A stretch of DNA of 64,000 bases from Hyphomicrobiales bacterium. GTDB lineage: Bacteria; Pseudomonadota; Alphaproteobacteria; Rhizobiales; Xanthobacteraceae. The stretch spans positions 147,324 to 211,323 of the forward strand of contig JAFKKH010000025.1 in the NCBI GenBank assembly GCA_017305665.1. The letters run 5' to 3'. Below, piece by piece: positions 4,140-62,282 of this stretch (positions within the stretch are counted from its first letter, which is position 1; every line of letters begins with the position of its first letter). The notes under the pieces were generated by a model. The model had not been told where the DNA came from and made no database searches. It saw only the letters and a list, made by a program, of their open reading frames with translations. The translations under genes and the position numbers were made by a program.

Positions 4140-4736
4140 ATGCCCCCTGCCGCCATTGCCATACTCGCCCTCGCCATCGGCTATCTGTTCGGCTCCATTC
4201 CCTTTGGCATGATCCTGACGCGGATGGCCGGAACGCAGGATCTGCGCTCGATCGGTTCCGGCAGCATCGGCACCACCAACGTGCTGCGCACCGGACGCAA
4301 GGATCTGGCCGCCGCGACGCTGATCGGTGACATGCTGAAAGGCACCGTCGCCGTGCTGATCACAGGATTAGCGTGGGGACCGAGTGCTGCGATGCTGGCT
4401 GCCTTGGGCGCTTTCATCGGACACCTCTTCCCGGTGTGGCTGAAATTCCGCGGCGGCAAGGGTGTCGCCACCTACATCGGCGTGCTGCTCGGGCTGTTCT
4501 GGCCGGCGGCGCTGATCTTCTGTGCGATCTGGCTGATCGTCGCATTGACCACGCGCTATTCATCGCTGTCGGCGTTGATTGCGAGTCTTGTCGCGCCGCT
4601 GGTTCTGTGGTGGCTCGGCCAACCGCAGCTCGCGACGCTGTTCGCGGTGCTGACGCTGCTGTTATGGTTCGCGCACCGCGAAAACATCCGCCGCCTTGTC
4701 GGAGGCCGCGAAAGCAAGATCGGCGCGAAGGCGTAA
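4140..4736 (+). CDS. plsY: glycerol-3-phosphate acyltransferase PlsY
   Basis: Membrane enzyme that transfers the acyl group from acyl phosphate to glycerol-3-phosphate, the first acylation of phospholipid synthesis. The 198-residue protein shows the PlsY signatures: [15 protein letters not shown] near the N-terminus, [15 protein letters not shown] (loop 1), and [17 protein letters not shown] (loop 2), with five or so hydrophobic spans. The ATG at 4140 has CCGGAG about 9 bases upstream and fits the family N-terminus; an upstream TTG at 4116 is less likely. It converges with the double-glycine peptide genes, stopping 9 bases before the second one. Confidence 0.95.
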
Positions 4737-4744
4737 GCTGACGG

Positions 4745-4921
4745 CTAACGGGTAATGCTGCTCACGTCGCCGTGGACATCAAGCGTCACGGTGAAGCCGA
4801 ATACCTTGAACTGGCCGCCGCGGGCATCGATCACATCGGGATTATCGACCGGCGACCATTTCATGCCACCGCTCGCCATCTCGATTTCGCCAGGCTGCAA
4901 TTCACGAATATTGCTGGTCAT
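4745..4921 (-). CDS. double-glycine-leader small peptide B
   Basis: 58 residues, starting MTSNIRELQPGEIEMASGG. The first 19 residues fit the double-glycine leader pattern (hydrophobic positions before a GG at 18-19) used by peptides cut and exported by C39-peptidase ABC transporters. The predicted mature part starts MKWSP, contains NPDVIDARGG and ends VSSITR; it has no cysteine. GGAGAA lies 5 bases before the ATG. It starts 14 bases after the upstream paralogue stops, so they are co-transcribed. No transporter or modification enzyme is in the window. It could be a bacteriocin-like or signalling peptide; no function is assigned. Confidence 0.75.
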   Translation of the reverse strand: MTSNIRELQPGEIEMASGGMKWSPVDNPDVIDARGGQFKVFGFTVTLDVHGDVSSITR

Positions 4922-4935
4922 GCCGGTTCTCCAGA

Positions 4936-5118
4936 TCAAGCCGGGCTGATGCTGCTGCACTTGCCGTTGATGTCGAACGTCATCGTCACGCCCCAGACGG
5001 TCAGGTAACCGCCGCGCGCGTCGATCACGTCCTTGCTCACATAGTTGTGGTCCCATTTCATGCCGCCGCTGACGGCGTGAATCTCTTTGTCGCTCAGTGC
5101 ACGAATATCCGTGTTCAT
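4936..5118 (-). CDS. double-glycine-leader small peptide A
   Basis: 60 residues, starting MNTDIRALSDKEIHAVSGG: a textbook double-glycine leader (LSDKEIHAVSGG). The predicted mature peptide begins MKWDHNYVSKDVIDARGG and ends CSSISPA with one cysteine. AGGAGA sits 5-6 bases before the ATG. It is clearly paralogous to the gene that follows it (shared GGMKW, VIDARGG, a V/T-rich strand and SSI near the end), so this is a local duplication with divergence. Its promoter must lie in the 142 bases shared with divergent dprA. Family function is unknown; class II bacteriocin precursors and other C39-exported peptides share this leader type. Confidence 0.78.
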   Translation of the reverse strand: MNTDIRALSDKEIHAVSGGMKWDHNYVSKDVIDARGGYLTVWGVTMTFDINGKCSSISPA

Positions 5119-5260
5119 CGGGGTCTCCTGTCAGAGTGAACATATCGCGCCGATAGTGCCGAGCCGATCCGGCGCGGTCCGTGACCCGCATCACGCGCTC
5201 ACGCCACCAAACCGGTTGTGACCCGCGCCGACTTGCGCGACACTTCCATCGGGGTGGGGC

Positions 5261-6382
5261 ATGGACGTCCGAAGTTCAGGCACTTTGCGGCTGACCGACA
5301 CGCAGCGGATCGACTGGCTGCGGCTGATCCGCAGCGACAATGTCGGACCGCGCACCTTCCGGACCTTGGTCAATCATTTCGGTGGCGCGCGGGAAGCATT
5401 GACCCGCCTGCCCGAGCTGGCGCGGCGCGGTGGCGCCGCGCGTCCGGGCCGGATTTATAGTGAAGCCGATGCCGAGAACGAATTAGCGGCAGCGCTCCGC
5501 ATCGGCGCCAGTCTGCTGGCGCCGGGCGAAGCAGGTTATCCGCCCCGCCTCGCCACCATCGACGACGCCCCGCCCCTGCTCGGCGTCCGCGGCAAGTTCG
5601 ATGTCATGATGCGTCCCATGATCGCGATCGTCGGTTCGCGCAACGCCTCCGGTGCAGGGCACAAGTTCGCGCAGACGCTGGCCCGCGATCTCGGCGAGGC
5701 CGGCTTTGTCGTGGTGTCAGGCCTTGCGCGCGGCATCGACCAAGCGGCGCATCGGGCGAGTCTGGCAAGCAGCACGGTCGCGGTGCTGGCCGGCGGCCAC
5801 GACCGCATCTATCCCGCCGAACACGAAGACCTGCTGGCGGCAATGCTGGAGACCGGCGGCGCCATTTCCGAAATGCCGATGGGGCATGTGCCCCGCGCCC
5901 GGGATTTTCCGCGTCGTAATCGTCTGATTTCCGGTGTCGCGCTCGGCGTCGTCGTGGTCGAGGCCGCGCATCGTTCCGGTTCGCTGATCACCGCGCGCAT
6001 CGCCGCCGAACAGGGCCGCGAGGTGTTTGCCGTTCCGGGTTCGCCGCTCGATCCACGTGCCGCCGGCACCAACGATCTCATCAAACAAGGCGCGACGCTG
6101 ACGACGGACGCCGCCGACGTCATCAATGCGGTACGCCCCATCATGGGGCGACCGGTCGAGCTACCCATCGAGGAACCCGACGACATCATGCCGGATGCCG
6201 GCGAGCCCGATGCCGGAGATCGCACGCGTATTGTCAGTCTGCTCGGCCCGACTCCGATCGGCCTCGACGATTTGATCCGGATGGCGAACGCGCCACCATC
6301 GATCGTGCGAACCGTCCTGCTCGAACTCGAGCTTGCCGGCCGGCTCGAACGCCACGGCGGCGGGCTCGTGTCGCTGGTCTAG
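5261..6382 (+). CDS. dprA: DNA-processing protein DprA
   Basis: Loads RecA onto incoming single-stranded DNA during natural transformation; also widespread in bacteria not known to be competent. 373 residues. The N-terminal helical part reads [27 protein letters not shown], followed by the Rossmann-like core with [46 protein letters not shown] and [14 protein letters not shown], all typical of DprA/Smf. The last 60 residues form a winged-helix-like end. The ATG follows GGGGTGGGGC. It is divergent from the double-glycine peptides and convergent with the SDR gene. Confidence 0.95.
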
Positions 6383-60661: not shown

Positions 60662-61237
60662 TCACATGCCGATGTCGAACACATTCGGAAGATGCACCAG
60701 CGGCAGGGTCGCCATGCCGATCAGGCTCGCAACCAGCGCCATCAGGGCATGATTGCTGCGGCGCTTGCCGCGCATCTGGCTCGCGACCCATTCCAGCACT
60801 TCGATATTGACGCCGATCGCCTTGGTCGGCGCCCAGCTCTCGATAGCGGTGTCCGGCGACAGCGCGACGCTGCGCGAGGGCACCGGAAGGCCCGACGCCG
60901 ACGCGGCATGATGCACGATCGCCTTGGCGAAGAGGTCGTCGAACAGTCCGGCGTCGCTCCGTTCGGCGGCAGCATCGTTGATCGCGAACAGAGCTTCCGC
61001 TTCCGCGCGGCTCACTGGCTGATTATCCACGGCGGCCGCGGTCAAAAGACGCGCGCACCAGGCAGCATCGGTGGAGTCGAGCGCGCGGGAAAAATGGACA
61101 CGGCCCCGTGCAGTCGGTCCTTCCCCGGTGATGACCCCATCCCGAACGACGGCAAGGGCCTGCGCCACCGCCACGCGATCTGTGATCTCGGAAGGTTGAA
61201 GGATGGTCGGTTCGGCAAAGGCTAAGGCGGCAGACAT
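60662..61237 (-). CDS. hypothetical protein, 191 residues, tail-anchored
   Basis: Starts MSAALAFAEPTILQPSEITD (ATG 61237). A helical, mostly polar body with VHFSRALDSTDAAWCARLLTAAAVDNQPVSRAEAEALFAINDAA, and a single C-terminal hydrophobic span (ALMALVASLIGMATLPLVHL) 10 residues from the end, after a basic KRRSNH patch. This suggests a tail-anchored membrane protein facing the cytoplasm. No family recognised. Confidence 0.72.
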   Translation of the reverse strand: MSAALAFAEPTILQPSEITDRVAVAQALAVVRDGVITGEGPTARGRVHFSRALDSTDAAWCARLLTAAAVDNQPVSRAEAEALFAINDAAAERSDAGLFDDLFAKAIVHHAASASGLPVPSRSVALSPDTAIESWAPTKAIGVNIEVLEWVASQMRGKRRSNHALMALVASLIGMATLPLVHLPNVFDIGM

Positions 61238-61622
61238 TGCAATTCTCTTCTTTTTCGGTCCCAGCAATTCCATGCGGGCGTAAACGGTTGGTTAAAGAAT
61301 CAACAAGCGGATCGCGTCTTTTTTAATCGCTTGCGGACGACCTTAATCACGTACCGGTTTGGTCGCTGTGACCTGCATCACGGTTCATCGCAGGGCGATC
61401 CGGCAACCGCGGGGCCGGTTCGGGGCGACTTCGCGGCGGCGAATTAAAACGAGGCAATCTTTCTGCCTCCGCGCCGCGGAGCAAAACACGATGCCAGCAG
61501 TTCAATCAGAAGAAGAAAATTCTCTCCTTTTCCGCCAAACGGTTCCCATCCGCGGCCGCCAGTCCTATACTGACTGAAGTGAGACAAAATCTCCTGTAAT
61601 TTGAATGACATGAGGTCACACC
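61238..61622. other. divergent intergenic region before the peroxiredoxin gene
   Basis: 385 bases. It contains two AT-rich patches (61285-61330 and 61500-61530) that may hold promoters for both flanking genes. No stable hairpin, RNA gene or credible ORF was found. No clear OxyR-type site could be identified by eye. Confidence 0.45.
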
Positions 61623-62282
61623 ATGGCACTTACGATTAACGCTGAAGCCCCCGATTTCGAAGCCGAAAGCACCGAAGGCCACATCAGTTTCCATAAATGG
61701 CTCGGCGATAGCTGGGGCCTGTTTTTTTCCCACCCGAAGGATTTCACCCCGGTCTGCACCACGGAACTCGGTGCCGTGGCCCGGCTCAAGCCCGAATTCG
61801 ACAAGCGCGGCGTCAAGCTGATCGGCATCAGCGTCGATCCCACCGACAAACATCACCTGTGGGCCAAGGACATCGAGGAGACGCAGGGCGTCGCTCCGAA
61901 CTATCCGCTGATCGCCGACGTCGATTTCAAGATTGCCAAGCTCTACGGCATGCTGCCCGAAAGCACGTCGGGTGACGTCAACGCGCGGACGCCGGCCGAC
62001 AACCAGACCGTTCGCAATATCTTTGTCATCGGACCCGACAAGAAGCTCAAGCTAATATTGATCTATCCGATGAGCACCGGCCGCAACTGGCAGGAAGTGC
62101 TGCGCGCCATCGACTCGCTGCAACTCACCGCCAAGCACGGCGTTTCGACCCCGTCCGACTGGAAGCAAGGCGACGACGTGTTTTTCTCGGCCGCCGTTCC
62201 GGAGGAAGAAGCCCGCAAGAAATTCCCGAAGGGCTGGAAGTCGCCGAAGCCTTACTTCCGCATCGTCGAGCAGCCGAAGTAA
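61623..62282 (+). CDS. 1-Cys peroxiredoxin (Prx6 family)
   Basis: 219 residues. Reduces peroxides through a single cysteine: Cys45 in FFSHPKDFTPVCTTELGAVARL; it is the only cysteine, so no resolving Cys exists and an external thiol is needed. ISVDPTDKHHLWAKDIEE, NQTVRNIFVIGPDKKLKLILIYPMSTGRNWQEVLRAIDSLQ and the C-terminal extension identify the Prx6/AhpC-TSA 1-Cys group. ATG follows GAGGTCACACC. A terminator follows. Confidence 0.96.
   Translation: MALTINAEAPDFEAESTEGHISFHKWLGDSWGLFFSHPKDFTPVCTTELGAVARLKPEFDKRGVKLIGISVDPTDKHHLWAKDIEETQGVAPNYPLIADVDFKIAKLYGMLPESTSGDVNARTPADNQTVRNIFVIGPDKKLKLILIYPMSTGRNWQEVLRAIDSLQLTAKHGVSTPSDWKQGDDVFFSAAVPEEEARKKFPKGWKSPKPYFRIVEQPK

Follow-up and report, generated by a model that had tools for sequence, protein, structure and literature searches.

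A tandem pair of double-glycine peptide genes between plsY and dprA and its probable place in a dispersed, CRP/FNR-type-controlled peptide set with an unlinked C39 exporter

A tandem peptide pair between plsY and dprA

Two small tandem open reading frames, A and B (60 and 58 amino acids), lie 14 bp apart on the minus strand at 4745-5118 of the window, the term used here for the whole 64-kb stretch of DNA analyzed, and are flanked by plsY (ending at 4736) on one side and dprA (starting at 5261) on the other (Table 1). The initial annotation, which named no strand, had described the two as paralogs with ribosome-binding sites, GG at residues 18-19, the motifs GGMKW and VIDARGG, and a single Cys in only one copy, and all of this was confirmed: both genes are preceded by GGAG, GG occupies residues 18-19 of either product, GGMKW and DVIDARGG are common to the two, A has one Cys and B none, and the peptides are 51% identical (E 2.5e-11). 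The predicted mature cores comprise residues 20-60 of A (41 residues) and 20-58 of B (39 residues). As in double-glycine precursors, the leader of each is short, has hydrophobic positions, and ends in GG; at 19 amino acids it is unlike the long leaders of nitrile-hydratase- or Nif11-like precursors, and no such model matched A or B.

Neither peptide was assigned to an NCBIfam or Pfam family, and Rfam gave no match within 4600-5400 of the window. The lone listed match for A/B, lasso_cyano, was rejected at 12.1 bits, below its cut-off of 33. Structure prediction returned a weak model (mean pLDDT 66, pTM 0.34) in which residues 10-16 form a helix and the core has three strands. Inspection of the ORF list by eye revealed no immunity-like gene between plsY and dprA.

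Table 1. Coordinates of the peptide genes, their upstream elements, and the candidate exporter cassette
Feature	Position	Strand	Evidence or remark
Peptide A gene, 60 aa	4936-5118	minus	ORF list and A/B comparison; relatives
A predicted leader, residues 1-19	5118-5062	minus	
Peptide B gene, 58 aa	4745-4921	minus	ORF list and A/B comparison; relatives
B predicted leader, residues 1-19	4921-4865	minus	
A ribosome-binding site GGAG	5125-5128	minus	
B ribosome-binding site GGAG	4929-4932	minus	
CRP/FNR-type palindrome GTGATGCGGGTCAC	5181-5194	minus	Starts 76 bp upstream of the A start codon (ATG)
Putative -10 hexamer CACTAT	5153-5158	minus	Alignment of 23 operators, three genomes
C39 ABC transporter gene, contig C3 locus	L003 9434-11638		C39 match, E 2.3e-35
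2Fe-2S domain gene, upstream in C3 cassette	L003 6622-8235		Domain match

Relatives and selection

The own genome (G000; a 5.03-Mb assembly of 47 contigs, designated by C-numbers, with the window on C15) was compared within a genus panel of nine members, G000-G008, and with loci fetched from genomes or records, designated by L-numbers. The homolog search proposed in the initial annotation yielded relatives at 14 loci in named records (ten from Bradyrhizobium, two from Nitrobacter, one from Bradyrhizobiaceae, and one from a further bacterium) and A-B matches at E<=0.01 in 11 of 391 family genomes. These relatives and matches, together with a dN/dS of 0.26 between A and B (at a dS of 1.71, near saturation), mark both as real genes, beyond chance. 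In an alignment of 16 members selected from those found, 11 columns are invariant, including GG and most of VIDARGG, and the family peptides of G001 and G007 are identical to those of the Nitrobacter sp. records L024 and L021, which makes it probable that G000 is a Nitrobacter genome.

The A/B cores appear to be mostly under purifying selection, with core dN/dS values of 0.23 for A-B, 0.15 for B-G007, 0.22 for B-G001, and 0.37 for A-G001, several of them at dS >1. The L015-L018 core gave 0.88, and values above 1 occur in some close pairs with few changes (L016-L018 core, 2.78 from 10 changes) and, at low counts, in leaders (G007-G001, 1.21; L015-L016, 1.22; L016-L018, 1.17).

Tandem paralogs with GG leaders could represent a classic two-peptide (class IIb) bacteriocin, in keeping with the two-component pair suggested in the initial annotation, and other same-strand gene pairs occur in the wider set described below. 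An obligate two-peptide system is nevertheless unlikely, because in two relatives, G001 and G007, the plsY-dprA site contains just one gene, of B type, and the two peptides are not kept together; the selection on the cores and the want of a noticed immunity-like gene also speak against it.

A dispersed set of double-glycine leaders

Searched with the curated leader model TIGR01847, the genome yielded nothing above the cut-off, and A and B were not among the matches listed; a local leader profile of 20 leaders and 17 columns was therefore built. Its E-values for A and B, 2.2e-5 and 8.1e-5, are those of two of its own 20 rows. The profile contains leaders from G000, G001, and G007, whose further double-glycine genes were first revealed by a four-sequence profile, A1; it favors these three genomes and would miss double-glycine genes of other genomes with a very different leader.

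With this profile, 11 matches in G000 reached E<=0.01, and relaxing the threshold to E<0.1 gave 13, spread over six contigs. Reading of the fetched loci gave 14 GG-leader genes in G000, the weakest of which (L114) has a profile E of 1.4, and all 14 have a GGAG ribosome-binding site; a fifteenth candidate has GA in place of GG (profile E 0.2) and carries the palindrome described below. Leaders of the set are ∼18-35 amino acids long, the cores are diverse in sequence, and several members other than A and B have, by eye, glycine-rich or hydrophobic cores of bacteriocin type. As judged from these leaders, the genome has about a dozen double-glycine peptide genes at scattered loci, of which A/B is one. 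The duplicated locus of the initial annotation stands as a pair but not as an isolated one. Most members of the set have a common CRP/FNR-type palindrome.

A candidate exporter on another contig

The absence of an exporter from the window, also stated in the initial annotation, agrees with a genome-wide C39 search, in which both matches fell outside contig C15, on C3 and C36. The strong C3 match lies within a 734-amino-acid ABC transporter, encoded in a three-gene cassette with a 2Fe-2S gene and a HlyD partner, and supplies the C39 ABC exporter that double-glycine precursors would need in their genome and that the initial annotation had proposed to look for. The 2Fe-2S gene, which had no Pfam match besides its 2Fe-2S domain, accompanies the genes for HlyD and the C39 transporter in four genomes. 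Among the nine genus members, C39 matches at E<1e-30 occur in G000, G001, and G007 only. An orthologous cassette is found in G101, from another genus (52, 59, and 69% identity; the transporter is truncated by the contig end), and is adjoined there by four double-glycine peptide genes.

The C39 domain of the C3 transporter has the Cys, His, and Asp motifs. The oxyanion Gln, usual in C39 peptidases, is replaced in this exporter by Ala, the residue seen in four orthologs; two more distant relatives and the NHLM-like transporters shown have Gln. According to passages of a report on CvaB, the Q26A substitution has only a minimal effect (PMC3335142). Over its whole length the C3 exporter matches the peptidase-bearing PCAT1 (4ry2) at 302 bits, with multidrug ABC transporters lacking a C39 domain scoring slightly above it at 305 bits; against NHLM_micro_ABC1 it reached 453 bits, under the cut-off of 853, which sets it apart from NHLM exporters.

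The C36 match belongs to a HlyB-like transporter, and its C39-like domain and HlyD partner would be the grounds for routing the peptides through it instead. This route is most improbable: the C39 match is weak (43 bits), HlyB is the best family model, an RTX-like repeat ORF lies nearby (by eye), and five of the six genus members that lack the peptide set have matches just as strong. At L004 6632-12331, HlyB/HlyD-type secretion genes were observed near an ORF with, by eye, Gly- and Asp-rich RTX-type repeats.

A common palindrome and its promoter context

Gibbs sampling of 15 upstream sequences, from the 14 GG-leader genes of G000 and the exporter operon, recovered a palindrome scoring 17.6 bits at width 16, versus 12.4-13.2 bits in ten Markov-shuffled sets, and 14.3 bits at width 12, versus 11.0-11.7 (12 starts for the real set, six per shuffled set). 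Perfect GTGA-N6-TCAC occurs within 200 bp, 72-102 bp before the start, at 23 of 31 double-glycine genes from fetched loci of G000, G001, and G007, the latter two covered in part; spacers of 2-5 and 8-12 gave 0/31 and a spacer of 7 gave one. In G000, 12 of 14 genes carry the site and the other two are second genes of pairs. Seven of the eight siteless genes among the 31 are second in a same-strand pair whose first gene carries the site, and the eighth (L122) sits behind a GA-leader gene that is also siteless. In loci of other genomes, the palindrome is present at 23 of 42 double-glycine genes (none with spacers of 3-5 or 7-10), and nine of their 19 siteless genes lie behind a same-strand double-glycine gene; the perfect palindrome was found at none of the four genes beside the G101 exporter. 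As background, two of 56 window ORFs of at least 120 amino acids have a site within 200 bp, one of them dprA, which shares the site of A, and, counting the one at A, there are two perfect sites in the 64-kb window and three in 104 kb of sequence from G000. The second perfect site of the window, at 61368-61381, lies between divergent ORFs at 60662-61273 (minus strand) and 61623-62282 (plus strand).

Class II CRP/FNR sites are centered at -41.5. Upstream of A, the A of the putative -10 hexamer CACTAT lies 24 nt after the palindrome, placing the palindrome center at about -41.5, and no sigma-70 consensus promoter was found at this -10. In an alignment of 23 operators from the three genomes, position 24 after the palindrome is A in 21 and position 28 is T in 13. 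Spacing was looser among 22 operators from further genomes, of which 11 have A at position 24 and 14 have it at 25. As far as sequence goes, a palindrome centered near -41.5 before a -10 conforms to the class II CRP/FNR arrangement. The exporter operon has a 7-of-8 palindrome at 91-94 bp in all three genomes, with similar arms and differing spacers, and a fitting -10 in one of the three, G000.

When palindrome, spacing, GGAG, and ATG are joined into one pattern, it occurs 19 times in G000 (11 at peptide genes of the set), 11 times in G001, 15 times in G007, and two to six times per exporter-lacking genus member, where some occurrences are conserved at other genes; the reversed control gave 0 or 1. 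At L178, L176, and L181, from exporter-bearing and exporter-lacking genomes, it lies upstream of what is, by eye, an OmpA-like secreted protein, and these matches may possibly belong to a core regulon. Small CRP-like or cNMP-binding-domain proteins are encoded near NHLM-type exporters and double-glycine peptides at L023 6213-6674 and L160 9078-9713.

Co-occurrence, empty sites, and probable relics

Leader matches at E<=0.01 number 11 in G000, 11 in G001, eight in G007, and one in G003, with none in G002, G004, G005, G006, or G008, and the exporter and the peptide set therefore share the same three of nine genus genomes. This co-occurrence lends support to the dependence of the peptides on a C39 exporter elsewhere in the genome that the initial annotation had anticipated. 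In all three genomes, the C3 cassette is flanked by priA and rlpA. In G002-G006, five of the six genomes lacking it, priA and rlpA are adjacent and the plsY-dprA gap has no peptide; in the sixth, G008, priA runs off the contig end and the contigs are cut at plsY-dprA (G008 and G001 are 89% complete). On the priA tree, which has good support for only one of its seven inner branches, the three genomes do not form one clade and require two changes, and a single change sufficed in 0% of the 200 bootstrap trees. Of 500 label shuffles, 115 gave equally good clustering.

Among the 391 family genomes, strong C39 matches (E<=1e-25) occur in 17 of 20 genomes with leader matches (E<=0.001) versus 35 of 371 without (Fisher p 8e-14, kinship not corrected for), the three exceptions being G003, G174, and G390. 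A-B relatives occur in 11 genomes; nine of these carry a C39 match of that strength, and G376 and G390 do not. The exporters of these genomes are not all of one kind: at the Bradyrhizobium-type loci L013, L025, and L026, the transporters exceed the NHLM_micro_ABC1 cut-off, and further transporters are NHLM-like by eye.

G003, which has no cassette, still carries a perfect palindrome between plsY and dprA, but no peptide gene follows it; behind another palindrome lies a 39-residue version of a 66-residue G000 peptide. The orphan operator and the shortened gene are probably relics of decay after exporter loss; alternatively, the plsY-dprA palindrome could predate the arrival of the peptide gene there. 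The apparent decay in G003 and the unlinked position of the exporter might suggest that the peptides of G000 are likewise remnants of a lost system whose export has ceased, which is quite improbable given that its exporter cassette, ribosome-binding sites, and palindromes are intact.

Proposed mechanism and comparison with known systems

The genes probably form a dispersed double-glycine peptide regulon under CRP/FNR-type control, with a single unlinked exporter for the whole set. A and B would be precursors of small secreted peptides. A putative CRP/FNR-family activator would bind GTGATGCGGGTCAC upstream of A and switch on the A-B operon along with about eleven other dispersed double-glycine peptide operons. 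The C39 domain of the C3 exporter would recognize the leaders and cut after Gly19, and the cores would exit through the ABC transporter, the HlyD adaptor, and an outer-membrane channel.

The products may be intercellular peptides, either microcin-like or signaling, with killing slightly more likely than signaling for the set as a whole. A plain bacteriocin is less likely for A and B themselves, given their conserved core and that no immunity gene was noticed beside them. That the two are kin-sensed signals rather than toxins is a tentative alternative, which would suit the conservation of the core across genera, the flanks without a noticed immunity gene, and the common activator-type palindrome, but not the bacteriocin-type cores of several other members.

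The proposed regulon resembles class II microcins and colicin V (CvaAB) in its short GG leaders and its C39 ABC exporter with HlyD adaptor, and differs in having many unlinked precursors per exporter, no immunity gene noticed beside A/B, and a 2Fe-2S gene kept with the exporter. Pneumococcal double-glycine peptide systems are controlled by peptide-sensing response regulators. In passages of PMC7595303, pneumococcal ComAB/BlpAB are likewise single exporters for several double-glycine peptides, some encoded elsewhere, whereas the system here is Gram-negative and has a CRP/FNR-type palindrome. According to passages of PMC2887384, NHLP/N11P precursors, which also have GG, can be encoded at a distance from the export genes, and the A-B relatives that share loci L013, L025, and L026 with NHLM-type transporters are a further likeness; the NHLP/N11P leaders average ∼70-83 amino acids, well above the length found here. 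Caulobacter Cdz, as described in passages of PMC5380434, also involves small alphaproteobacterial proteins and type I secretion, but its genes are clustered with their own exporter and an immunity gene.

There is about an even chance that a CRP/FNR-controlled regulon of secreted peptides extends family-wide, through nitrite oxidizers and Bradyrhizobium alike. Nitrobacter-type genomes would have one cassette with a 2Fe-2S gene serving a dozen or so dispersed, co-regulated, diverse peptides, a set that decays on exporter loss, and Bradyrhizobium would export the same peptide family via NHLM exporters, with the exporter swapped and the switch kept.

Significance

Among the matches listed from open-licence papers, none reports such a dispersed peptide regulon. 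Precursors are usually sought beside their exporter, and a dispersed set would escape gene-cluster mining; here one is indicated jointly by the leader profile, the palindrome, and the way presence and loss are distributed among genomes. GTGA-N6-TCAC, the -10, GGAG, and the GG leader offer a simple handle for collecting the remaining members. That the peptides seem to have a distant single export machine and a common on-switch suggests that this group of bacteria has a network of peptide secretion that is as yet unstudied, and peptide-mediated interaction in nitrite oxidizers and Bradyrhizobium is thereby made directly testable.
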